Positions 28,405 to 45,820 of a stretch of 64,000 nt of DNA are shown here, piece by piece. The position numbers were made by a program, and so were the translations under genes. The stretch spans positions 1 through 64,000 of the forward strand of contig JASKOT010000041.1 of assembly GCA_032158125.1 (NCBI GenBank), in the 5' to 3' direction. Origin of the DNA: Papiliotrema nemorosa (taxonomy: Eukaryota; Basidiomycota; Tremellomycetes; Tremellales; Rhynchogastremaceae). Each line of letters starts with the position of its first letter. The stretch's first letter is position 1. The notes under the pieces are model-generated. The model searched no databases, was not told the DNA's origin, and saw nothing but the letters and a program-made list of their open reading frames with translations.

Positions 28405-29340
28405 ATGTCTGGTTTCCTCAACTCCATAGGGTGAGCAGCACGACACGACCTCAGACCTGACCCCTAGTCGTCTGCGTGCACCCAAACGGTCCCCTCTCCC
28501 AAACGCGCCCGGATCAAACGGTCAAGGATACTTTGAACCCCTCCCTTCTCCCGGTGCAGAGTTCACGGGAAACCCACCCTCGCCCACCGGTCCTAAACCG
28601 TTATACCTCTGTCAGCCATTCGTCAAAGCCGCTTTGGTCAAAGGGTCTTTCAAGACCATCGTCGCTCCCCCGAAGTATGTCGACGTGAACGAATGGGTCG
28701 CTGTCAATTGTGCGTATATACGGAAGGGGAGGGTATAGGTAAGGTGCTGATGATAGTGTTCGACTTTTACCATAATCTCAACCACTTTTACGGCGCATTG
28801 ACAGATTTCTGTACACTTCAGAACTGTCCCTCCATGTCTGCCGGCCCGACGTTAGTTGTCAATTTTTATACATCTGGGGTCTCGAGCTCACAACCAGACT
28901 CAACTTCCTTTGGCCTGATCAGAACCAACGGCTGGTCTCGCTCCCTGCGCCTACTTATATCGACTTTGTAATGTCGTGGCTCCAGAAACTCCTAGACGAC
29001 GAGAGTGTTTTCCCCACAAAATCAGGTATCCGCCCTCATCCCACACTTGACCATTGGCTCACGTCCAGGGCGAGAATTCCCAAACTCATTCGCATATACC
29101 GCCAAGCACATTTACAAACACCTCTTTAGGATCTTCGCCCATATATACCATCAACATTTCGAACAGATCCTCCATCTCTCCATCGAGGCGCACTTCAATT
29201 CCCTCTTTGCGCATTTCCTAGCCTTTGGCAAGGAATTTGACCTGCTAGCTATGAAGGATCTGATGACGCCTCAAGGCTTGGGTCAGGGTGTCGCGGAGCT
29301 GAGCGAGCGATGGAGAGAGATGGGCATTCTGGAATCGTAG
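28405..29340 (+). CDS. MOB2: Mob2 kinase activator (RAM/MOR pathway)
   Basis: Regulatory partner of the NDR kinase Cbk1/Orb6, acting in polarised growth and cell separation. 253 aa in five exons: 28405-28430, 28468-28709, 28757-28850, 28898-29025, 29069-29340. Mob-family features: the FDFYHNLNHFYGALTDFC and CPSMSAGP blocks (Zn-binding Cys), PAPTYIDFVMSWLQ, and RIFAHIYHQHFEQI with Zn-binding His. The extended YLCQPFVKAALVKGSFKTIV and PKYVDVNEWVAVN N-terminal block and the C-terminal LSIEAHFNSLFAHFLAF match Mob2 rather than Mob1. The third intron uses donor GTTAGT and removes an alternative open stretch. The protein starts with a short variable region. Confidence 0.92.
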
Positions 29341-29519: not shown

Positions 29520-31598
29520 TTAAGGTTCAAAGACGCTACCGCCCGTATCGTACTTTCTCGTATCAGACTCTGCTTGCCATCCACCTTTGCCTCCAAACGT
29601 GATGACGCAAGGGGTACTGCGATTCGCTAAGGTTATCAGTTTGACTGGCTTCCATAGACATTAGGAAAGAGATATGCTCACTGTCGACCCATTCAATGAC
29701 ATGGCCTTTCGACCGCAAGCCCTCAGCCACTTGATCCGAAAATCCATCTATCGTTTGACCTCGCCATTCGGACGATCGCTCAATTTGCGTCATGTTGGGC
29801 AGAATCTGGTTGTGCAGTCGATTCGCTCTGAGTGATTCTTTCGCCAGCATGCCATGATCCTGGGTTATTAAGATCTGACCATTGACAATTTGACAATGTT
29901 GATGACTCACAATGACATTCCTGATCACTTGAACATTGGCGGAAATGATCGTACTGCCCCCGGCAGCTCCTCCAGCCATGATGACCTTTCCACCTTCCCC
30001 TTCCACGATATACGGGCAGCTAGACGATAATGGTCGCTTCCCTCCTTGTACTGCGATTTGAGCTCACACACACACTCACATCCTTGGAAGAGACGAGGGA
30101 TGGCGACGGGGCACTCACCGTAATTTGCCGGAGAAGGCTCGTAGCCCGTAGCGTTTGGTCGACCTTTTACCGAGAAATCATCCATGGAATCGTTCAAGAT
30201 GAATCCGAATCCGGGCACCATGATCCTGCTTCCCCAATTCAAGCCTACGGTGGTAGTGATAGAGACGACTAGACCCGATCCGTCCGCAACGGTGATATTT
30301 GACGTTCCGTTGTCGTCCTTCACCTCGATCCTAGGGCGCAGTTCAGCTTTGTGCCAGGTTTGATGTGCTCAACATCTTGAGACTCACCCTGGCTGCTGAT
30401 AGTAGCTAGGAGGGAAGGTCTTGTCCCTTGACAGCATTTTCGATCTCGAGGCAATGAACTGCTCGGAAGTCCATTCCTTCTCCTTTGCTTTCACTTCAGG
30501 CACAAAGGTCGGATCACCCAATTCAGCTCGCAGACCGTATGCCAGCTGATTGAGTGAGCTCCGACCCCCCTACTATAGACTTTCAGACTCACTCGTAGAG
30601 ATTCAGTGACGAGGTGATATTCATCGACCGATCCCTGTTTGGCGGGCGGTACCGAATCCAGCATACTCAACGCCGAGAGAAAGACTGATCCAGACGCAGG
30701 GGCAGGTACCGTCCATACTGTCTGACCTCTGAACTGTCCTTTGACAGGCTCACACCACTTTGGACGATATTCTGACGATGAGACCTTGTCTCATTTGACC
30801 CGTCTGCTGGCGCTCACCTGCTAGATCCGTCAATTCCATGAGACCGCCTCGATCTTTGACCACCTCGACGATACCCTCCGCTATGGCACCTTGATAGAAT
30901 GCCTCGGCACCCTGCTCTGCCAGTATCGAGAGGGTGCGCGCAAAGTCCGATCGTCTGTAGATCGCCCCCAGGGGTAAGGCTTTTCCGTCTTTGAATAACG
31001 AATGGAATTCCGGGTCAGACTCGTACCAGCTCCCTTTCAACTCCTCCGATCCATCAGGAATATCTCGCAGAGTAAACTGCCCATCAGTACAGTGTCCCTT
31101 CATAAAGCCAACGCTTACAGAGCGAAAATCACCTCCTATGGGGAAACCATCCCTTGCCAGTTGGATGCTCGGGTTCAACAGATCCGCCCATGGCAACCTC
31201 CCATATCTACTATGCAACTCCCCCAAACCCCTCATTTGACCAGGCACAGCCACTGCAGATCCTCCCACTGCTGTACTGGCGCCTTTCTGATACCATTCCA
31301 TAGTCACCGCTTTCTACATGGTCACCACTCATCCAAAGTGAGAGTGAGCACGGGTCCAACTTACAGGCGCTTCATGTCGGAAATTCAAAGCATTGTACGT
31401 CCCATCACTCTCTCTGATGATGGCGAACCCTCCCCCTCCTAGATCCGAGTGATAGGGACATAACGTGTTGACAGCTATGATGGTAGCTACGATTGCGTCT
31501 ACGGCGTTTCCCCCAGCTTTGAGAATGTCTGTACCGATTTCCGAAGCGCGTCGATGTTCGCTGGCTACCGCTCCTCCTAATATGCACTGTACGGTCAT
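29520..31598 (-). CDS. ECM38: Gamma-glutamyltranspeptidase
   Basis: Hydrolyses or transfers the gamma-glutamyl group of glutathione and related peptides; N-terminal-nucleophile enzyme that self-cleaves. 572 aa in eight exons: 31598-31365, 31313-30818, 30771-30593, 30545-30388, 30330-30119, 30050-29911, 29874-29682, 29626-29520. Landmarks: the EIGTDILKAGGNAVDAIVA block, SDLGGGGFAIIRE, FRHEAP (substrate carboxylate Arg), the autoprocessing Thr near residue 365 in DNGTSNITVADGSG, GLNWGSRIMVPGFGFILND, and AGGAAGGSTIISANVQV near the end. No obvious signal peptide is seen with this start, so localisation is open. An alternative upstream exon (31706-31692, MACCK) could be spliced to 31586 in the same frame. 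Divergent from the dehydrogenase at 31947. Confidence 0.9.
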
Positions 31599-31946
31599 GT
31601 GTCAAAGATATTCCCCTCGGTAGATGGCTCCGCTTGGGCAGATATTCGAGGTTATGAGGGAGTTATAATGCATGCTTGAACTTGCTCACACTTTACAGCA
31701 AGCCATGGTGTCAATAGCCGAGTCGGAGATGAGCGATGGAGAGATACGGCACCTCCGACACATCGGAGCAGTAGCTGATCAAACGGACATTCAGACTGAT
31801 AACGAGAGACAGCACATGCCTGCCGTCTTTTCCAGGAAGCTCCCCAGTCATAGGCTTTCAGTGGGTCTACTTGACACCTTGACTTACCCCCGTATAGTCT
31901 TCTTACATCTTACAGGAATCTCGTCTGCAATCTCTCTGTTCACAAG

Positions 31947-33301
31947 ATGCCAATCGCCACGGTCAAACGAAGAATCTTAGGCGTGGGACCAGCCCAAGGA
32001 GCATTGACAGAGTTCAAACAGCTATGTATAGACTACGATGTGCACATGATCGAACGTGGACCAAGGGACAGAGTGAGCTGGGCCGCTTCCTCTTTGAGCA
32101 CCTTGTCCATCTGATCACCAGGTTCAAGCGGATTTCAAACGCATGTGCGAGGAAGAAGGACCGTTTGAAGCAGCTTTCATCTTGTTCGCAAATGGCACTT
32201 ATGGACCTATGGACCAAGATCTCCTAGGGTGTCTTTGGCAGAACGGCAATAGTCAGTATAGCCTCCCTGTGCGATTCACCGTCCATTTGCGGAATCCTAT
32301 AGGCGCAGTTGATGTCAATCGAAGACTGACCATAGATGTCGCATGTTTCGCGCAGTGCGGGGCAGGATACGACAATGTTCACGTTCCAGTCTTCACCGAG
32401 AACAATTGTTACTTCACCAATACTCCCGATGCGGTGACGAGCTCCACCGCGGATTTTACAGTATTACTCCTCTTGTCAGCTCTGAGAGGTTCAACGTATT
32501 GCGAGAGGGTCGCAGCGAGTGGATTGTGGCATAAGGGTTTGGAACTGACCACTGATCCGGAAGGGTTGACATTGGGTATGTCGTGCTCCCCCTCCTTCCA
32601 CAGAAGCTGTAAAGATTTTATGTCCCGTCAGACAAGGTTAAGAGGCAAATCAATGACTCAATTTCAGGTGTCTTTGGGATGGGAAGAATCGGCAAGGATT
32701 TTGCACGGAAGATGAAAGCCTTTGGGATGAACATCATCTATAATACGCGAACACGATTACCGGCCGAGGACGAAGCTCGACTGAGTGTCACTTACGCTAC
32801 GAAAGAACAATTGGTCTCGACTGCAGATGTCATCTGTTGTCTCTGCCCAGGGACCAAAGAGACGTATCATCTCCTTGACCAGAAAGAGTTTGATGCAATG
32901 AAAGGTGATTGGTCTTACCCCTCCATCACTCACGGAAGCGATTGGGAAGTGAGCTGACCGACAGATGGAGTATTCATCATCAATTCATCTAGAGGCTCTG
33001 TTATCAATACCACCGCGCTCATAGGAGCTCTTCAAAATGGAAAGGTCAAGAGAGCAGGTTTGGATGTGGTGGAGGGTGAGCCGAAGATCCCGCAAGAATT
33101 ACTCGACGATCCAAGAGTCACCATGACACCTCGTAGGCCGTCGATCTGCTTCGTCATGTCATTAACAAAGGTGACTGACCCCCAGATGTCGCCGCATATA
33201 CACTAGGAACAATAATCAGAGGGGAACAGGCGGCCTTCGCCAATGTCCGAGCTTTCTTGGAGAAAGGCAGCCCGGTATCCCCGGTAAACGGACCATTTTG
33301 A
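31947..33301 (+). CDS. D-isomer-specific 2-hydroxyacid dehydrogenase (glyoxylate/hydroxypyruvate reductase type)
   Basis: NAD(P)H-dependent interconversion of 2-oxo acids and D-2-hydroxy acids, cytosolic or mitochondrial. 338 aa in six exons: 31947-32072, 32122-32251, 32336-32575, 32668-32904, 32965-33132, 33186-33301. The Rossmann motif GVFGMGRIGKDFARKM lies in the central domain. The catalytic triad residues are visible as Arg in INSSRGSVINT, Glu in LDVVEGEP and His in MTPHVAAYTLG. The substrate loop FAQCGAGYDN is typical of GRHPR-like enzymes. It ends PVNGPF, as in many fungal members. Its neighbours are a Zn2Cys6 gene 90 bp downstream (convergent) and gamma-glutamyltranspeptidase upstream (divergent). 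Confidence 0.92.
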
Positions 33302-33391
33302 CCTACAAATGGCACTCCTTCATAGACTTTCCAGACACACCACGCCCTTGCACCAGATATGTATACATATGAGCAAACTCCCAAAGACGTC

Positions 33392-36300
33392 TTACGACAA
33401 TGGCGTGGTATCGGGCGACATGTCGAGTCCTAGATTGACCAAAAACGCCTCAAAGTCAAACTCTGGTCCGGGAACCGCCACACTCTGATCGCCCCAATTC
33501 AAACCATTCAAATTCAAACCATTCAGCATCTGCCCTTCTATCAAAGATAACGTCGAGCCAGAATCCATTATAGTCGAGGTGGCGGATAGTGAGCCGGGAA
33601 CAACTGCCAGGTCTGTGTTGCCCTCTTTACCGAACGACGCAGAAGGCGAGATGTCGAAGAGGTTTTGTAGTGCCGAATAGTCAATCGATGACACGGCCTG
33701 AGGATCCGTCGTATGCGATGTCTGCGCCTGAGATATTCCGGCAGTCGCTGATGAAAGGACGCTCTCATGATCTCCGATACTGGATGAATCACGTGCAGCC
33801 GAGCGGGAATGCGCGCTCATGGGCAGGGCCGCAGTATGTTCAATCCTGATTGGCGATATGCCTTGACTCGGTTCCCTCGTTCCACCGATCATCGCTAGAT
33901 CCTCCTCGTCGGCCGGTACCGCTTTGCCTGCATTGACATAGATTCTCTCGGCGTTTTTCAACAGGCGCTCAACTTTACTCTGTGCACGTGAGTCTTGGCC
34001 CAAGACAAAGCTCGGGAGTGGAATAATGTTGGCCGGGTGACTCACCAGCTCATCAGGCTTGTTTCCATCTTCGAAAAGCTTCACTCCTTGTTGCAAGGCA
34101 GTCAGAGAGGACGAAGCCATGAGCGATCCCGGGGCTCGTATAACCGCCGAGGCGAGGCACGCACACGCTGAGAAGGAGTGCACCTGTCGAATGAGCTGAC
34201 CCTTCCATGACACAAAGGTCTAAGAAGACTCACCAAGAACATCCATCGTCGACGACAGATCTCAGGGTCTATAGTAGCCAGTTGACGGACAATGTTCAGG
34301 AGAGATTTGCTAGCTTCCAGACAACCGACATAGCTCGGACTAAACAGTCAATTCACGTGTCAGAAGCGAGGTGCGGAAGACTGACCTATATTTGCTGTGA
34401 AGGGGCTCGTCAGGTCGATCCAAGAGAGCTTTGGCGAACCACCCTCGATGGAGAAACATACACCCGACATTCTCCTTCTCAGCTCGATAATTCGCTTTCT
34501 GTACAATGTTCACTCACGAGATGATTATGTATCGTCAACCGTTGTATGGATCGACGCTTGTGCAAAGTCGCATCCGAAAATTGTTGAGCGCTAGAAGGTC
34601 ATTTGGGGTCCAAGAGAACAAAGATGCTCGTACTGCTTGATCTGATCCGGCAAACCATGTTGGACTGTATATTAGTACCAAACACCAATGCGATATATCG
34701 CACATTTTCTAATCTCCCTATCAAGCTGCAGAATGGTGGAATACGTCGAAGGCTTGAGCTTGGATTGTTCCTCGTTGATCCTTGCAAAGTGCCTTGTCAT
34801 CCGATACTGCACTGTCTTCAGCTCTTGGGTATAATACTGCATGTCCGACTGACCCTTGTATCATGATCTGAAGAACCTCAGTCACTGTGGGTCGCGTCAG
34901 AAGAATAGGACTTACAGTAATCTCCATTGGAAGGGATCTCCGGATAGAGCACATCAAAAGCGTGTGCTGCCAACACTATAGGTAAGCAGATCCTTGATTG
35001 ACAGACCGGCTCGAAAATCAAGCTCACTCTGCGGCCGGCCCATCGATAATGATATGGTGGTGTCAAAAGCATATAGCTATGTTTCAGCTCCCAGCGACGG
35101 ATATCTCTTACCTCCCAGAAGATGCGCCGTCTCTGCTGGATTCCCGCAGGCGAGAACCCATAATGAGAGGGGTCGCGATGCAGACCCAGAGCTTGGACTA
35201 CCCTCATCCCCATCCCCAAGAGCTGCCAGGTCGATTGGCTGCATGAGACCATCTTTCCGGCATTCGTGAGCCAGTTGACCAGCACGTGTATCGCTTGAAC
35301 ATCTATCATTCCATCAATGGTGCCACCTGGCAGGGACTCATGAGTCGGCAACTCACAGATGAGAGAGTTGGACGAATCGAGAGACAAACACGCTCTGCCA
35401 AGAGCAAAGTAGTCTCGTGCGTAAGAGTTGTCTTTGAACCTTCAGCCTTCAAGTCTGAGAAGAGCAAGTCATCTTACGAGCCGCGCCGTTGGATTGCAGA
35501 GGGTCAAACATTGCTCCTACGGCCAAGACCAAGAAGAACAAGGCCAAGATTTGTGCTTCAGGGGGTGAAACCGTATAACAGTGGTGTACGATATCCTGGT
35601 GAAAAGCCTCTCTGTTGAGCATGTTAGTACCCCAAGCGACATTCTTTCAATCAGTATTTATTCCGCTGGGAACTCACCTCGAAATAACTATCACACAGTC
35701 GGAATGCTTCTTGAGGTACGGGGAGGTACCTCGCCAAGTCGACCAAAGTCTTACTCAGCCTCATCGCTGAATCTCTCTCGAAAACGAAAGATTGGATCCA
35801 TCCTGGACGAAAAGGAAATGGGGCATGATTTGAGTCGGATATCCTAGCATCTTCCTGCTCTTGATCCGACTACATTGTCAGATGTTGATTGACGTGGAGG
35901 AGTAGCACCAACGACGAGAAAGACACTCGAGGCATTACCATAGAATTGCGTCACTCCTGGCCTTGCAGGATCAATCCTCAGGTGGCCTAAACGGCTCGAG
36001 GTGCTTTCTTCCTTCGAGTTGACAAGTTCCAACCGTCCTGCTTGATCCACTCTGTCAAAATCGACGAGTCCTTCAACCTCACCGTTATCCCCTTCCGAGG
36101 CTCCGGCCATGTCACAGGGCCCTTTGTCGTGCGCGCTGTCGTGCTCGCTGTCTGAAGCATGGCTGCCTGAGATCCCATCCTCGGGCAGGGAAATGTCCAG
36201 ACGGGTATGAGAGGGAGGATGATGGGTGACGGGGTCCAAAGACCCGGTAACTTTTCGAAGAGCTGACTCTAATTCTGATATACGGTCATGGAGTGCCTAG

Positions 36301-36735
36301 TGTGACTTGGTGCTCTCCGTGAGCTATAAGAAGGGGTACTCACCTCCGTACTGTCTAGAATCAACCTTCTTATCAGTTTCTATAGCCCGCTACGTATCCC
36401 CTTGCGCATCGATCGGACGAGGGGTCAAACTCACTTTCGTCCTCGGATGGTCTTTAACGCTCCATTTGGACAGATCGATTCCGTTCCTCTCCTCTTACAA
36501 TTGACACAAGGAAAATTTTGATCGCACCTGAGGCATCAACAGCGCCGTCTTGTGAGCGGATAGCGGCTCACTTGAGCTTTAACCTGCGACATTCGGCGCC
36601 TGGTATCAGCTTGTTCTGAAACGGAGGAGACTCACAGGATTTAGCCTTGCTGGTGAGCGGACTTCGGCGTTTCGCTATCGGTTCTTCGTCCGACTCAAGT
36701 CTTCTCCCCACAGCGTTGGACTTTGAGAAGCTCAT
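33392..36735 (-). CDS. Zn2Cys6 transcription factor with fungal-specific TF domain (second; two microexons)
   Basis: Nuclear regulator, 853 aa in 18 exons: 36735-36636, 36599-36572, 36527-36435, 36350-36344, 36296-35913, 35869-35678, 35607-35478, 35431-35112, 35076-35007, 34975-34916, 34884-34877, 34848-34704, 34664-34634, 34590-34518, 34474-34386, 34339-34234, 34183-34046, 33979-33392. The GAL4-type cluster spans Cys34, 37, 44, 50, 53, 62 and is itself split by two introns. A short coiled coil follows (ALHDRISELESALRKV), then the fungal_trans region with GMRVVQALGLHRD, RRRIFWE and FDTTISLSMGRPQSEL, then a disordered C-terminus with an NGLNLNGLNWG repeat. Frame demands a 7-nt exon (36344-36350) and, most simply, an 8-nt exon (34877-34884). 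It sits between the dehydrogenase and the aldolase and may control the organic-acid genes. Confidence 0.83.
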
Positions 36736-36993
36736 GACACAGTTGCAGTCGTCTACAAGGACATGCGTTGTGCTAAAGGCGGTCTCGTCTCGAGGTTGAG
36801 CGGCTAGGGAGCCGTATCTATGGGCTCATCGGACTCGGCCGTGACTCGCACCTATCCACCCAAACTCATTCCCGCAGTCAGAGATAGGCGATATGCATAT
36901 AGTAAACATCAAGTAGCATCCTCTCGCCGAGAATACATCCTGTAGTCGATATGCTGGATAAGGTGTGCTGATAGGATACAGGGTGACTATGAA

Positions 36994-38122
36994 TTACAAA
37001 ATGGAGGAGAACTGCTTGCCTTGGGCATTCATTGCTCCGATCAGCATGGTAAGATCCCTCGAAGCCATGGCAAAGCTGCAGAGTGAGTACACTGCCATCC
37101 GAGACTGGAAGTGTATCTCACCGGATACAAGAGTACTTCTTGACTAGATCTTCCAGGACATCAGGGCGAGGTTCCAACCCTCCCAACCCGACGAAGACTC
37201 GTCTACCATTGATACTGGCACTCTCGGCGGCTTTTGCAATTTTATCAACGGTAGATCGGAATAGCTCCGAGTCATATTGACCAGGTATACCGAGTCTGAT
37301 ATCGTCAATACCGAACACTGCGAGGACGTGGAGGTGACTTGCTCCATACATAAATCAGCACAACCGATGAACAGTGCATCGATCCCTGCTACCGCTGCGA
37401 TAGCCCTGAAGATAAGCCACAAAGTGTTCATCAGAAGACGTTGCTTACTCGACATTTGAGACGCCTTCTTCTGTCTCAATCATGGGCATGATCAGGATAG
37501 AGTCATTCACAACTTGAGTGATGGGTCCAAACCCTACAGATGTCTGATATTGCGTCACGGCCGTGAACATGGTCACAGATCGATGTCCCTTGATGTCAGT
37601 GATCTCACTTTGATCTAATACACTGGCCCAGGTGCTCACCAAAGGAGGGAATTTTGATGCGCCGACACATAGCTTGGCCTGCTCTACGGTGTTCACATGA
37701 GGTACGATGACACATTGAGCGCCCGAGTCCAGACTCCTCGATATCCATTCAGCCGCACAGGTTGGCACAACAACAGTCGGTGTGATCCTCTTGGTCAGCT
37801 TGAGCTGGAAACGGAGGACTTACCCAACATTCAGACAGCCAACAGCAATATCTTTCATACTTTCCATACCCATGGCCATGTGCTCCAGGTTCATCAACAG
37901 AGCTGTATATCCCGCCCGTTTCGCAATCAAAGGCATCTCGGTAGAGAAGGCGATACGCATCCCGAACGAGAATGCCAACTTGTCAGCGAGCATCGTTTCT
38001 TTGACAGTGTTGGGACGGCAAACTTCTCTAGCAGCCGCCAGTTGAGCCGGCTCGATCGTCGTCTTCTTTGCATTCGCATGGCCATTGGCATTGACAATGT
38101 GGTGTCCATTTTCGACCGCCAT
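36994..38122 (-). CDS. HpcH/HpaI-type class II aldolase
   Basis: Metal-dependent aldolase that makes or cleaves 4-hydroxy-2-oxo acids to pyruvate plus an aldehyde (2,4-dihydroxyhept-2-ene-1,7-dioate aldolase family). 301 aa in six exons: 38122-37824, 37787-37640, 37588-37449, 37405-37343, 37295-37122, 37075-36994. Landmarks: MNLEHMAMGMESMK, ITPTVVVPTCAAEWISR, GAQCVIVPHVNTVEQAK, KFPPLGHRSVTMFTA, the metal-ligand Glu in METEEGVSN-like IETEEGVSN, and Asp in FIGCADLCMELGIPG. The intron at 37296-37342 has a GCAAGT donor (GC-AG type); GT-AG alternatives break the frame. It is divergent from the Dal5-type permease (497 bp between starts) and lies 258 bp from the start of the Zn2Cys6 gene. Confidence 0.88.
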
Positions 38123-38619
38123 ATTGCAGAGTCTTTCGATATGGCTGAGATCTGTAGAGTAGAATGCTTTGTATGGTATGATGGGCGTTCTTTACACACG
38201 ACCTATATGAAGTGCAATGGTCGAACCCCCTAGACGAGGTCGCGATCTTTCGTACTGGACCGCCTTGGAGTCACGGACGCGACAGATACGATTCATTGCC
38301 GACTCACGGAGCTCGGTCGTTCCATACACACAGTCCCTCCTTTGTCGGACGACTGAGATACGCAGCGAGAGTGCGAGAAATCATTGGTTCCTCGCCGCCT
38401 GCACCTGGACCCCCTGCGGATAAGCAAACGAGACGTCGGACTTGAATCATTCCCGATTCCCTCCATTCCGCTTCAACTCCGATCCATATCTCCCCCTCTC
38501 CGTCTTTCCAAACATACCGTACACCTGCTCTATCTTACTCTTACAAGCCTTAACATGCGTATAAATTACTCACCCCCGATCTACTGATCTTTGAGCTTCT
38601 ATCGCTTAATCGTCACACC
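38123..38619. other. Divergent promoter region aldolase / permease
   Basis: 497 bp between divergent starts, with a TATA box on the permease side (38560) and a pyrimidine-rich leader. Overlapping ORFs near 37697-38445 are shadows. Shared regulation of the two genes is likely by layout. Confidence 0.55.
38560..38567 (+). promoter_or_regulatory. Probable TATA box of the anion permease
   Basis: TATAAATT lies 60 bp upstream of the permease start codon at 38620; near-consensus and well spaced. Confidence 0.5.
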
Positions 38620-40668
38620 ATGGAGTCTGCTCCCAAGACTCAAAGCACCGTTGTCGTCCAACCGGGTGAAACGGTCTACGATCCAAACTATGTTCCTGAA
38701 AAAGTTTCTTTCGGGAAGAAGCTCTTGTATCATCTTTGGGATTCCGATCAACATCTCAAGAGTCCAGAGGTGAGCTCGCACAAGCTGAGGCACCATCAGG
38801 ATATTGATTATATGTAGGAACGTCGGCTCATCCGGAAACTCGATTTTGGAATTCTGATCTGCGCTACTCTGGGTTGGGTAAGTAACAAGCTTCATCTACG
38901 TGGCATGACCGCCGACATTGCTCCAGTGGATCAAATATGTTGATCAGAGCAATATCGTCAATGCCTGTAAGTGCCATGACTGACACTCGAATCGACATTG
39001 ACGAGGAGATGTCACTGGGATGAAAGAAGACCTCAGGATGCACGGCAACGAATATACCGTCTGTCTCAGTGAGCTACTCGTTGATTTTGCTTCATTCCAT
39101 CTGGTTGACACTAAGTGATGTACACTATCGGTTTCGCCATCATGCAGATCCCAGCCAATATGATCGCTCTAAAGGTCCGACCTCGATATTGTATAATGGC
39201 GTGCGAACTAGGCTGGACTGCCTTCACTTTCGCCCAAGCAGCCGCCAAGACGCCTCAACAGATGTACGTTTTCCGATTCTTTGTCGGCCTACTGGAGAGT
39301 GGTTTCTCGCCCATTATCATCTTCCTCCTTGGATCTTGGTACAATAAGAAGGAATTGGCGAAACGGATCGCGATCTGGCATATCACTGGGTTTTTCGGTT
39401 CGGCGACCTCGGGTTTTCTCACTGCTGGTATACAACGTACACTGGATGGTCATGCCGGTTTAGCAGGTTGGCGATGGTTGTATATCAGTGTGTTGATTCG
39501 CGTGGGGCAAAGCAGTAGCTGACGAGTGACAGTCTGCGGTTGCATGTCTCTGCCTGTAGCGGTTTCCGTATATTTTCTACTACCCGATTATCCTCATAAT
39601 ACGACAGCTTGGTATATCACCGAGGCGGACAAACAGATGGCTTTGGATAGAGCAGCAAACAACGGTAGAGTCAACGTCACCGGTAAACTCAACCTCGCGT
39701 TGGTCAAACGCATGTTTGGAAATTGGCGTTGGTATGTCCTCGTCGCCATGTACATCTTCGTGAGTCTATCAACCTCTTCGAAGATCGGAGGGATTTCGCC
39801 TTACTCGAAAAATTCTGACCATGCAGTATGGGAACTCTTGTCAGGCGAACAGTTACTTTGCCATTTATCTCAAATCGAACGGTTACTCGGCAACTCAGCG
39901 AAATGTCATCCCAGCGTGTGCCAATCTCGTTTCGATGGTCACAGATTTCGCCTGGGGATTTTTCAGTGATCTGACCGGAAGTCGATTCTGGTGGATGGTA
40001 GGACCTCTGGTGAGCCAAGACACTTGAGCCTTGCAGATTGCCATTATTGACACATCTAGAGCTGCACAACCGTGATCGGAGCTTCCATCTTAACCGCTTG
40101 GCCGGCCAATGACACTGCAAGAGTCGTCGCTTTCTTCCTGGTATCCGGCGGGTATGTGACAGCGGTCACCTGGACGTGGGCCAACGAGGTGATTAAACCT
40201 GTCCTCTCCTATGTTTGTGCGCGCGTTTGGCTTATAGATCAGATCAACAAGGGCAACGCCGAGGAACGTGCCTTGACTATCTCCAGTATGAATGGAATCT
40301 TCTACGCCACGAGTAAGCCATCGCGAATTGTCCTGGACAAGCCCGCTTACCCTCAGACTCTTTCCTTCCTATATTGATCTTCCCCCAAACGATGGCTCCG
40401 AAATTCGAGAGAGGATTCCCCTCAATCTTGTCCTTTGCGTTGATGGCTATCCTACTTGTCTGTGTGTATCGCTGTCTTTGGAATCTCTAATGAAAACGAT
40501 GAGCTGACCACAGGCCTCACGCAGTACCTTCATCAGCGGGAGCTCCGTCAGGAGGTCAGAGTGCAGGAGACCATTCATATGGAACAAGGTAGCGAAGTCA
40601 AAGAGAAGGACGATGTGGACGGAGAAGCCGTTGTGGCTGTAGTCAACTCTGGTCCCACCCTGTCGTGA
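38620..40668 (+). CDS. MFS anion:cation symporter, Dal5/allantoate permease type
   Basis: Plasma-membrane importer of an organic anion, 516 aa with about 12 membrane segments, in eleven exons: 38620-38769, 38818-38877, 38927-38966, 39009-39068, 39116-39487, 39533-39759, 39827-40009, 40060-40188, 40243-40312, 40357-40461, 40514-40668. Signature features of the fungal ACS family: RKLDFGILICATLGWWIKYV followed by DQSNIVNAYV in TM1, GFAIMQIPANMIALKVRPR, FRFFVGLLESGFSPIIIF, WYNKKELAKRIAIWH, GWRWLYI before the central loop, and LPDYPHNTTAWYITE. Substrates of the family include allantoate, ureidosuccinate, nicotinate, pantothenate and tartrate-like acids, so the true substrate is open. The acidic C-terminus is typical. 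It is paired head to head with the aldolase and lies tail to tail with the isocitrate-lyase homologue. Confidence 0.9.
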
Positions 40669-41070
40669 GGCTGCCAACCCTCTCAAACGGCGAGCGAGTG
40701 GCGATGCCGAGTAGAAGTGGGAGCGATGAGCTGATTTGAATTGTAAACCGGGAAGGGACTTCATGAATTACGATTTAGAATCTGGTATATAAAATACAAG
40801 AAGCGGCCAATACATGCATGTTGAGGCTAAGTAGAAATTAAGTGATCCTTCATATTGGAAGGAGTGTTGGCCACAGCGCAATATCTCAGTTGCAATGGAG
40901 AGGATCTGAAGGACGGAAGGTGAGGTGACTTGACGGGCTGTCACAATGACTCCATATGCCTTGAATATGGATGTTCAGATCTAAAACTCGTCAGTGCACC
41001 TAGAGCCAAAGAGAGCTTCATCGGAATGATCAGATGCATGTGTAGGCTAGAAACAGGACAACTAATTACT
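40669..41070. other. Convergent 3' intergenic region
   Basis: 402 bp between the permease and the isocitrate-lyase-like gene, AT-richer than the coding flanks. No feature seen. Confidence 0.5.
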
Positions 41071-42786
41071 CTAATAACCGTCTCCAATAGCCTCTGAAGC
41101 AGCATCACTCAATTGACCCATCGTCTTGTTCCAGACTTCAGGTGAATCCTGCGGAGACAATTCGGCAGGTCTCGAGAACTCCTGAATATATCCCAAGATC
41201 CCCTTTTCTTTCACTGTTCGAGCTAATTTCTCCCCCGCATAGGTCCAGGAAGTGATTCCGGCTCCAGGCATAAATGTCCACGTATACTTGAGTCTATCGA
41301 ATAGCGCCGGCAGCTTTCTCGCTTCTTCATCCCTGGAACCTGCTTATCAGATTTGGAGCATCGGGAGAACAGCTTCTAGGCTTACCATCGGCAGGGAACG
41401 TTCCGGTCATGTTGTAGCCCGTCCATCTTCCTGGTAATTCTCTTTGCATCAACTCTGAAAATTTGATCGCCTTTTCTTCATTGTGCAAAGTCATATTCAT
41501 CCATGATACGTCGATCACATGGCTCGCGGCGATGCACCTTTCCGCAGCGGACTCAGGACACCCTCTGAAAAGGTAAAACCCAGCCGAACATCGAGCGGCA
41601 TCTCCACTCCAGTAGAAGCTGGGAGCAAGCTTTGCCGCCACTCGAAGTGCGGATGAGATGTTCATTTTGGCTGTCTTGGCTTCAAATTCGGGGTACAGCT
41701 CGCGATGAGCCGACTGAAATGCCTCATCGAGTGTCATCAGCTTCGCCGAGGCTTTCCAGGAGGCTCGAGAAGGAGAGTCGGTCAGTGAAGCGTAGTCTTG
41801 GGCTTGTTCCATCGACGCTCCAAGGATATACGGACGATCTCGATAATCGATAGCATCGGTGATTCGTGTAGAAGAAGCCCCTACAGTACGGTAGATGAGC
41901 ATCATCTCCGATCTGCATCGATTAGCCCATTTCGAATCACACAGGAGATATCGACATACCCCATGAGATCAAGCTGATATCGTGCGGCTATGAGACGGCG
42001 TATCGCCTCACACGTCGGCGTGATGATCCATCCTTCTCCATCTTTCCCGTCGAATCGCTTGGTGCCAGACAACAAATCATCGAGATGGATTCCCGCCACG
42101 CCGCTCTGTACGAAAAGCTTGACAAGCTTCATGATCGCTGTCGTCTGACCGTGCCTGTAGTTAGTGACGACACACAGAAAACATCGGACGATGAGGTCAA
42201 TCGTCGCTTACCCGGAATCGGCATCCGCAATTATAGGCAGCAGGAGTCTCTCCCCATTCCCTGGCTTATGGAAGTCTGCCATACGAGCTTGCAGTAGCTG
42301 AGCCCTGTTGAGTCTCTGTACCTGTTACGAAGGTCTCAGCGGGCCATCTTTGGTGTAGCAACCCCATCCCACCTCATTCGGGACCGAGTCATATGGATAG
42401 TCCGCAAGATCGACTCCCGGATCCGTGATACTGCTTTTGGCAACATGGCTTCCAGAGACATAAGCGCACTCTGTCCAGAGGCATTAGCGCTCTGATCTCC
42501 ATATCAGAACGCGTGACTCACCATAGCCTGCTTCTGCCATTCTTTGCAAGCTGACGACATCCGGTACAGCATAAGTCATGCAAGCCGTGCCTGCTGAATG
42601 GTGGGCTGTAAACGCCTTTCGCAGTTTTAAAGCCATCGCATTGCCTAGCGTGTTCTCAGGAAACATGTCTCGCAGACGGATCACGCTGGCCGCCGAGTAG
42701 GGTCTGCGCAAGTGTTTCTGTGTCTCTGAATTCCACCATTCTTCAAGCGATCGAGGTGATTTCCAGTTCGACAGGTCGGTGGTCAT
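41071..42786 (-). CDS. Isocitrate lyase-superfamily protein lacking the KKCGH catalytic motif
   Basis: 487-aa member of the isocitrate/methylisocitrate lyase (PEP mutase) superfamily in six exons: 42786-42522, 42470-42373, 42321-42212, 42154-41960, 41912-41386, 41339-41071. The overall ICL framework is retained: ECAYVSGSH (YVSGWQ-like), DLADYPYDSVPNEVQRLNRA, the Mg-site strand LLLPIIADADSGHGQTTA, GVAGIHLDDLLSGTK, and a C-terminal MPGAGITSWTYAGEKLAR. However, the catalytic loop reads KRFDG (residues 190-194) instead of KKCGH, so the catalytic Cys is replaced by Phe; the downstream ARTDSE is replaced by YRTVGA. It is also about 60 residues shorter than eukaryotic ICL. True ICL activity is therefore unlikely; another C-C lyase or hydrolase reaction, or a regulatory role, is inferred. 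Confidence 0.85.
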
Positions 42787-43143: not shown

Positions 43144-45489
43144 CTACTGTGCAGCTCCCGATCGCCGCGAGCGCAATACCCTCGGCTCATCGAAAGACAC
43201 AACATCTGCAGCAACGTGCACTACTTCATCCGGTCTCGACCCAGATGTGTCCGGCTTCTTGCTCGCAATGGCGACAGTTTGAGCACCACGTTGACGCCTC
43301 TTCCTCCACGCCAGAAGCTCCTTGATCAGACCGACCACAATTGGCAATGCCACTGGCGCGAAAAGAGGGGTGTAGACAGCAAACTTGTGCTCATCCGGCT
43401 ATATCGCTTAGCTGTTTCGTGTTTATGCAAGCTGTGAACGACTCACAAAGTATAGCAAACCCATCATGGATGGGTCGAAGAAAGCTTCATTGGCTAGTGC
43501 CACAGCATCTCGAGACAAAATGAAAGCTTCGCGGACATCTGTCGCTTGGTCCATCTGAGGTATCAGCGATGTCTCATCAGGAGCATATGGGACAGAGAGC
43601 TCCTCACCTCCTCAAGTCGGTCTACCGCGCCTAAGACCTTGTCCCTGACACCCGCTTCCACCTTCATCTCCGAAATCTTCTTCACCAGCCTCACAATACC
43701 AGCAAGAGTCTTACGAGCTTCGTCAGAATTCTCCTTGGTCCGAATCCTCAGGACCTGCTCCACCTGCCAAGGGCTAACGGGTGGGATGAAGGGGTCTTCC
43801 GGGACATTGGGGGACATGGTAAGTGATGGTCCAACGAAAGAGGGCTGTGAGGGAAGAGCAAGTAGCGAGTAGAGATGTTGGGTGAACAAGTGGAATGATC
43901 CGGCGAGGGCGTCAAGAGGTAGATGATATGCTGTTACAGGAACGGGAGCAGATGGAGGTGGATTGACAATGGCTACAGAACCGTATTGGGGTATGAGGAA
44001 TGAGTCTGATGTGTCTGTAATGTCAGTCGTCAGTCGTGGCAAAGCTGGTCGACGGTCAGCCTCACCTGGGAGATCGATTCTCATAGGGCGATGCAGGGCC
44101 GAGGGGACAAATAACAAGAAACGCAATACCGGATTGTTGGTGCTTCCCGAGTCTAATGGTCAGCCTCCACCACGGCACGTGATGCGGAGCTCACCCAGAG
44201 ACCACCTCTCGGAATTGACAAAGATCTTGGTTTCCTCCTCGGAGATCTTCCATACATTATCCGATGGCAGACCCAGGACGTCCTTGACAATCTTGACAGA
44301 ATCGTCATCTTCTGCCACACGATGACCTAAGAGCTCGACTGGGTCCGCACGCGGTGGTGGAAGTGAGCCTGAGATGGGTTCGAAGGTTAGCGGCGCGTGA
44401 TGTAAGATCTGAGATTCGATTGAGAAGTCGAAAATGTCCTTGAGAGGTTCAAGGTGAGGTGTGATATGGCCTGAAGTCAGCCAGCGGCAGCAACCTATTC
44501 GCGTGAATGCGTACGAGCGATGGCTCGTTCGATCTCCCAATTGCGAACGTGACCTCCTAGACTTGCGTCCTCGTTTAGTAGCACAAAGCTGAGAGTGACG
44601 TTCGGGCTGTATTTCAAGGCTCGATGAGGAATGTCGGGGATGAGAATATGAGGAGGGAATAAGAGTCGTATAGCTTTGTCTATCGTCATGACATAATGTT
44701 CTAATCTCATGAGCTCCCTGACGACGAACTTCGACCTACTCATCAAGAGCTGAGTGCCCATCAAGCTAGGGTGAACAGATATCACCAAAGTCCCAGGTTG
44801 TATACCACTCGTTATCAAGCCTTTCTCTTCTGCTTGGATATAAGACCGAAGCGGAAGTGACGAGTTGGCACGGTCGGTATGCCGTATGTGTACTCTCAAC
44901 GAATGATCGTGCTTCACATCTTTACTCAGCACGACTCGAGTGGAATGGGAAGGAACGCACTTTGCGGACGTCCAATCTTGATATCCCATAAACGTTTCGC
45001 CCTCGTGGCAGCAGGTTGTTGACCTAGAAACCCATCCGCAGCTTTTGTAATCTCCTTGACTAAAGCTGCGAGAACATCATCATGCTCAAAGACCGCTTTG
45101 CCGGGTGGAGGTGTTGGGAAAGCAGCCGTATCAGCCGTGAGCCATATTGTGGTCCGGGGACTATTATACTGCGTTATGAGCACGAGTTTGGCGGCAGATG
45201 ATTGTCCTACCTCTGCTCCCTCCAGTGCCTGTATACGCCCTGTGGGTAGGGGTAGTCTCACTATCGACGTGGTGTAATACCAGAAAGGAAGCGCGACCAA
45301 CAATAACAGAGGGAAGGACAGCACGGTCAAGATTCGGGATTGATGAGAGGGGTTGAGCCGGGCTGTTAGGGCTTGAGCGTCGACATTGTCGTCCGACTCG
45401 TCTTGTCTGTCGTTCATCCTTGCATCCTGGTCTCCCGTCGATATCGTTATAGTCGTCGACACCATCAGAACGGGTGTCTGGGTGGACAT
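43144..45489 (-). CDS. GPI17: GPI transamidase subunit PIG-S (Gpi17)
   Basis: ER membrane component of the transamidase that attaches GPI anchors to proteins. 688 aa with this start, seven exons: 45489-44961, 44919-44515, 44470-44195, 44152-44066, 44014-43608, 43554-43447, 43398-43144. N-terminal membrane anchor ILTVLSFPLLLLVALPFWYY followed by the family's TTSIVRLPLP; large luminal domain with WEIERAIARHITPHLEPLKD, FSIESQILHHAPL, FLIPQYGSVAIVNPP and the WQVEQVLRIRTKEN region; C-terminal ALANEAFFDPSMMGLLYF then a second membrane helix (LFAPVALPIVVGLIKEL) and a basic cytosolic tail. Start choice is uncertain: Met at 45417 (MNDRQDE) is equally plausible. Divergent from TEL1. Confidence 0.9.
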
Positions 45490-45820
45490 CGGTCGAATAG
45501 GCGCGTCAAACAGCACATCTGCGCAGAGATAGGCGCACCATCTACCGGTTGACGCGACTGGAGATGTTGATTTCCTGGCAACCTGTTCGACAACATGTGC
45601 TCTCAGCTCACATCGAAGCGGACGACAGCGTTCGATCAGTCCGATTCAAATTAGATGTGAGTGTGAATCAGACAGATCGTTATTGATGTGAAGCCTGTTG
45701 ACCTGTCTGAACCCAGATCAAAAAGCACAACCTGCCCGAAATCACCCACTCCCGGGGAACTGCCCGTCTACCTAGGCGGAGCAGGTGACCCTCGACCCAC
45801 CTTTCCTCCTCCTTGCGGAC
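45490..45820. other. Divergent promoter region GPI17 / TEL1
   Basis: 331 bp between the two start codons; no other feature recognised. Confidence 0.5.

Follow-up and report, generated by a model that had tools for sequence, protein, structure and literature searches.

Bacteria encode an acid permease of the ACS family beside an HpcH/HpaI-type aldolase in the operons HpaX-HpaI, GarP-GarL(-GarR) and RhmT-RhmA, the gar operon adding the product reductase GarR. The same two families stand side by side in the window, i.e. the 64,000-nucleotide stretch analysed here (positions 1 to 64,000 of contig JASKOT010000041.1, hereafter C41, assembly GCA_032158125.1) from the basidiomycete Papiliotrema nemorosa, whose genome (G000) comprises 19.2 Mb in 68 contigs. 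Between positions 31947 and 42786, the outer ends of the gene models, the window carries in this order the genes of a D-2-hydroxyacid dehydrogenase, a Zn2Cys6 transcription factor, an HpcH/HpaI-type aldolase, a Dal5/Liz1-type permease and an isocitrate-lyase-like protein. Unlike the bacterial operons, these genes are fungal and spliced, they score far under the NCBIfam equivalog cut-offs, the dehydrogenase stands in the place of GarR, the aldolase has the equivalents of Arg70 and Asp42 of HpaI replaced, and C41 has no dehydratase match. As for fungi, the HpcH-family catabolic step described in the available portions of two sources is that of the L-rhamnose pathway (PMC9699597, PMC13158570). 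Similarly to the window, the fungal L-rhamnose LRA cluster, as far as the accessible text describes it, combines an HpcH-family aldolase (LraD) with a Zn2Cys6 regulator (TRC1/RhaR), but the window's contig has no enolase-type dehydratase match and its permease is of a different type (PMC5674754, PMC9699597).

Using a combination of methods (profile searches, orthologue comparison, structure models, phylogenetic trees and counts of neighbouring genes), we propose that the aldolase and the permease are probably a two-gene catabolic core that has moved among fungi, joined here probably by the Zn2Cys6 factor and the dehydrogenase, with the isocitrate-lyase-like gene as a bystander. In this proposal, the permease would import an organic acid, which, as such or as a near derivative, would be cleaved to a 2-oxo acid plus an aldehyde by a metal-dependent class II lyase of the HpcH/HpaI type; the dehydrogenase, probably in the unit here, would reduce the 2-oxo product, and the adjoining Zn2Cys6 factor probably belongs to the unit as well. 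The substrate class, the lyase chemistry and the roles of the dehydrogenase and the regulator are what we infer. The preliminary description of the locus had gathered all five genes into one coherent organic-acid path; it is supported for the aldolase-permease pair, in part for the dehydrogenase and the regulator, and not for the isocitrate-lyase homologue.

That the aldolase and the permease form a conserved pair is well supported. Among the matches listed (the best 120 of 179 for the aldolase and the best 120 of 365 for the permease), 23 organisms have orthologues of both proteins (for the permease, at 55% identity or more), and in 19 of them the two contigs have the same length, which we take as close linkage, the shared contig being read from the equal lengths of the contigs given with each protein match and not from gene positions. 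The objection that this gene order might be confined to one strain therefore fails for the pair. The shortest shared contigs measure 42, 53, 60 and 75 kb; about 0.6 contig matches would be expected if the permeases were placed randomly in a genome with an assumed size of 40 Mb; and in Pseudocercospora eumusae the locus tags of the two genes (AC578_5481 and AC578_5484) are three apart. Permease paralogues with less than 55% identity shared the aldolase contig in none of 11 organisms among the matches listed. The organisms with the linked pair belong, by our assignment, to the Sordariomycetes, Leotiomycetes, Dothideomycetes and Agaricomycetes; the four without a contig match (Colletotrichum fioriniae, C. 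noveboracense, Fusarium fujikuroi and Seiridium cardinale) may owe this to different assemblies. The count left out environmental rows, aldolase matches below P0146, and two permease rows above 55% without an aldolase row, from species already in the permease list (P0262, Fusarium graminearum; P0266, Stachybotrys chartarum), and it took in permease rows below 55% solely for organisms also having an aldolase row. The pair is undescribed in the open-access literature searched, where no account of it was found.

The MFS_1 match of the permease (115.2 bits, above the Pfam cut-off) and its nearest named relatives, often called pantothenate transporter liz1 among the matches listed, place it with the Dal5/Liz1-type ACS permeases. 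In NCBIfam it scores best with families of acid transporters, in each case under the cut-off (the D-galactonate transporter subfamily, for instance, at 137.7 bits against a cut-off of 395). In the permease tree, a fully supported group (100/100) unites the window's protein with 22 ascomycete sequences, and holding it together with the six agaricomycete orthologues is rejected (p 4e-6). We read this as a sign that the permease was transferred horizontally between Ascomycota and the window's lineage. In the aldolase tree, the window belongs to a starred group of six that also takes in four Tremellales and one environmental row; this group nests in a clade that includes Ascomycota, and three further Tremellales stand apart. 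Possibly the whole pair was transferred.

With a PF03328 match above the cut-off (54.8 bits, scored on a mis-spliced model of 323 residues) and a TIM-barrel fold like that of solved members, the aldolase belongs to the class II HpcH/HpaI family. It has in common with E. coli HpaI (PDB 4b5s; R70A, 4b5w; D42A, 4b5x) the fold, the metal ligands and the catalytic histidine, as these residues are assigned in HpaI. Within its subfamily, delimited by match rank (the window and P0081-P0146), Glu187 is kept in 66 of 66 rows, Asp213 in 61 of the 61 rows with a residue and His81 in 66 of 66. Arg70 of HpaI and Asp42, in contrast, are replaced in the window's aldolase by Val106 and an asparagine. At the Arg70 place the subfamily has valine in 61, alanine in two and arginine in one of the 64 rows with a residue; the window's aldolase lacks this arginine of HpaI-type pyruvate aldolases, which is present in 53 of 54 other relatives and, in the aligned strings, in all six paralogous aldolase stretches of the same genome that cover the site. 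The asparagine occurs in all 66 subfamily rows, as compared with aspartate in 49 of 52 other relatives. In HpaI, Arg70 is reported to matter for substrate specificity, cleavage and enolate stabilisation (PMC8560999). The preliminary description had the aldolase yield pyruvate plus an aldehyde: the family is borne out, and the claim is weaker than stated because the arginine that serves HpaI is replaced by valine.

Two new conserved arginines distinguish the window's subfamily from HpaI, namely Arg69 (62 of 66 rows) and Arg281 (61 of the 61 rows with a residue, 1 of 53 other relatives). In a structure model of an orthologue, the equivalents of positions 106 and 281 (87 and 262) end the strands 83-87 and 255-262, which are the third and eighth strands of the barrel; in this fold, the mouth of the active site lies at these strand ends. 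Judging from this model, Arg281 may take over from Arg70. A more far-reaching account, which we regard as tentative and on the whole doubtful, would combine a substrate-binding arginine moved from strand 3 to strand 8, the exchange of Asp42 for asparagine and a new lyase chemistry with a permease-aldolase island travelling between phyla, comparable sets with dehydrogenases having been assembled several times in one genome.

We counted the neighbours within 10 kb of the 12 HpcH loci above the Pfam cut-off in the genome. A 2-hydroxyacid dehydrogenase and a window-like permease accompany the aldolase at the same four of the 12 loci, three of which also have a Zn2Cys6 gene; the permeases at the three other loci are 25-30% identical to the window's. 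When the window is left aside, the dehydrogenase-permease pair occurs at 3 of 11 loci, a number reached by none of 20,000 random placements, and at none of 16 control loci (four MR_MLE, three ILVD and nine sugar-transporter loci, the latter being those scored out of 317 candidates). Singly, the permease adjoins 5 of 12 HpcH loci (reached by 1 of 20,000 placements; one of 16 controls) and the dehydrogenase 4 of 12 (1 of 20,000). The counts left out a permease match at C5:30431 and two weak HpcH loci, and the window's Zn2Cys6 gene, which the Zn2Cys6 scan had not reported, was added by hand; Zn_clus genes beside other HpcH loci were found at C16, C9:493k and C7:719k. The comparable sets do not look like recent duplicates: over their longer stretches the paralogous aldolases are about 30-39% identical, and the dehydrogenases are mostly unmatched.

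With these families recurring together at other HpcH loci, the proposals that the dehydrogenase belongs to the cluster and that the Zn2Cys6 gene is its own regulator find partial support, the latter with a weak association. The window's dehydrogenase is likely, and no more than likely, to belong to the unit. Its best solved relative is the glyoxylate reductase 3wnv, and the arginine, glutamate and histidine used by enzymes of the glyoxylate-reductase type are present in it. Elsewhere in the genome, at C4:101608-105528 (L060), what appear to be three genes for 2-hydroxyacid dehydrogenases stand in tandem.

The isocitrate-lyase-like protein is conserved and presumably has a changed function; judged by its sequence, it is no isocitrate lyase. 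Similarly to fungal isocitrate and 2-methylisocitrate lyases, to which it is about 30% identical, it has the fold of this family, but it reads KRFDG where the second isocitrate lyase of the genome, on C19, keeps KKCGH, as it does YVSGW and SPSFNW; the altered catalytic loop noted at the outset is thus confirmed. The loop cysteine is present in none of 14 rows (the window plus P0001-P0013), the column holding histidine in eight, phenylalanine in four and threonine in two, and the loop histidine, the tryptophan of YVSGW, the second glutamate and the serines of SPSFNW are gone as well. The score with TIGR01346 (230.5 bits) falls under the NCBIfam cut-off of 275.9. Its closest relatives (35-53% identity, one of them a fragment), from a search that scored 7998 candidates, come from Kwoniella, Cryptococcus sp. 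DSM 104549, Saitozyma podzolica and one further source. The model of the orthologue P0005 (predicted local distance difference test, pLDDT, 84) matches the fold of isocitrate lyases, adding no function.

That all five genes, including the isocitrate-lyase homologue, serve one organic-acid pathway appears improbable to us. The genes are adjacent and their families all handle 2-oxo or 2-hydroxy acids or their import; the isocitrate-lyase-like clade is conserved in Tremellales and so probably functional; and, as a weak point, Kwoniella newhampshirensis has an isocitrate-lyase-like gene and a permease paralogue (45%) on one contig of 1.36 Mb. However, the isocitrate-lyase-like gene and the aldolase lie on contigs of different length in all four species having both, and we reject the membership of the former; the named members of its clade come, among the matches listed, from Tremellales only (with two copies in K. 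newhampshirensis), whereas the aldolase-permease linkage spans Ascomycota and Agaricomycetes. A better contender, though still rather unlikely in our view, is that the aldolase and the permease alone belong together, the dehydrogenase and the regulator being chance neighbours in an accessory-rich region. Linkage elsewhere was shown just for the aldolase and the permease, further genes resembling permeases occur on C41 at 75 kb and 87 kb, and the window's dehydrogenase is closest, among the loci fetched, to the C4 array, while two of the three dehydrogenases at other HpcH loci have no match to it at 1e-3; against this stands the recurrence of the dehydrogenase and permease families at three more HpcH loci of the genome. 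As for the L-rhamnose pathway, which in Aspergillus nidulans ends in the HpcH-family L-KDR aldolase (lraD/AN9425), the enzyme family and the presence of a Zn2Cys6 factor agree with what the accessible text describes (PMC9699597). We nevertheless reject this pathway, which seems very improbable: C41 has no match to an L-rhamnonate dehydratase of the enolase type, the MR_MLE dehydratase matches of the genome being on C26, C12 and C7; the permease matches MFS_1 and not the sugar-porter family of Pfam; and no match named Aspergillus occurs among the best 120 of 179 aldolase matches, many of which are without a name.

Returning to the mobile aldolase-permease core with its probable partners, we note that several observations, together with the mostly unmatched dehydrogenases, weigh against it. 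Without the 55% identity threshold, which was drawn after the lists were seen, the contig matches amount to 19 of 30 organisms with both kinds of row. The Tremellales holding the aldolase have, among the best 120 of 365 matches listed, only permease paralogues (43-45%) on other contigs and outside the orthologue clade. The aldolase tree leaves room for a basidiomycete clade, not rejected at p 0.077, and for a Tremellales clade, not rejected at p 0.13; in view of the former, a joint transfer of the pair is no more than possible. With valine at the place of Arg70 and asparagine at that of Asp42, one cannot take the usual pyruvate aldolase activity for granted, and a profile search found no ILVD/EDD or enolase-type dehydratase on C41. 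The evidence for the membership of the dehydrogenase and the regulator comes from this one genome, and random placement disregards any general clustering of such families. The association of the regulator is weak, as the Zn2Cys6 counts of 4 of 12 HpcH loci (controls, 1 of 16) and, leaving the window aside, 3 of 11 are reached by 150 and 747 of 20,000 placements, respectively. The proposed search for a motif shared by the promoters gave nothing above chance: CGG half-site pairs are present at many spacings in each upstream region examined, and the sole candidate tested, CCGAGTCNG, occurs five times in the window, a number reached in 12 of 100 shuffles.

The features of the window and the comparable loci are collected in Table 1. 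All five families announced for the stretch are present, with Pfam scores above the cut-offs (besides those given above, 2-Hacid_dh_C, 176.5 bits; ICL, 252 bits; Zn_clus, 25.9 bits, and Fungal_trans, 26 bits, both on the regulator gene). The aldolase gene model, with five introns, was settled by comparison with orthologues, with which it agrees, and the divergent promoter shared with the permease measures in the corrected model exactly the length first described. One aldolase intron is of the GC-AG type (47 nt, 37296-37342) and another, GT-AG, has just 36 nt (37788-37823); gene finders may overlook such short, odd introns. The GC content makes no step at the cluster, staying at 0.49-0.53 all along. 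A gamma-glutamyltranspeptidase gene (29563-31601) adjoins the dehydrogenase gene divergently and could be part of the accessory stretch. In another fungus, Epichloe, a published putative biosynthetic cluster (NEA12_g03979-g03986) combines an efflux pump with an adjacent gene of the HpcH/HpaI family, as the available portion of the source describes it (PMC8147782).

Table 1. Features of the window on C41 and loci of similar composition in the same genome.
Feature	Position	Strand	Model	Remark
Mob1	28996-29337			open reading frame; left flank of the five genes
D-2-hydroxyacid dehydrogenase, glyoxylate-reductase-like	31947..33301	+	349 residues, 6 exons; gene model, Pfam	probable member
Zn2Cys6 transcription factor	33392..36735	-	about 862 residues, splicing inside uncertain	possible regulator
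HpcH/HpaI-type aldolase, N78/V106 subfamily	36994..38122	-	301 residues, 6 exons	core member
Aldolase exons	37824-38122, 37640-37787, 37449-37588, 37343-37405, 37122-37295, 36994-37075	-		
Divergent promoter region, aldolase/permease	38123..38619	.	497 bp	
Dal5/Liz1/ACS-type MFS permease	38620..40668	+	516 residues, 11 exons	core member, ascomycete affinity
Cys-less isocitrate-lyase-like protein	41071..42786	-	487 residues, 6 exons	neighbour, probably outside the unit
PIG-S	43566-45645			open reading frames; right flank of the five genes
HpcH aldolase, 2-hydroxyacid dehydrogenase, window-like permease, Zn2Cys6 gene	C16:333375-340858			within about 8 kb; L019, L011, L013 and L022 cover parts of this locus and the next
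HpcH aldolase, 2-hydroxyacid dehydrogenase, window-like permease, Zn2Cys6 gene	C9:489205-495123			within about 8 kb
HpcH aldolase, 2-hydroxyacid dehydrogenase, window-like permease	C9:37-45 kb			the only one without a Zn2Cys6 match

Together, these data suggest that, of five neighbouring genes with similar chemistry, probably just a part travels as a unit. A permease-lyase pair that occurs from Mycena to Colletotrichum, with a catalytic arginine replaced, would provide a handle on another fungal carbon source, and it may also offer a case of changed specificity within a well-studied aldolase family.
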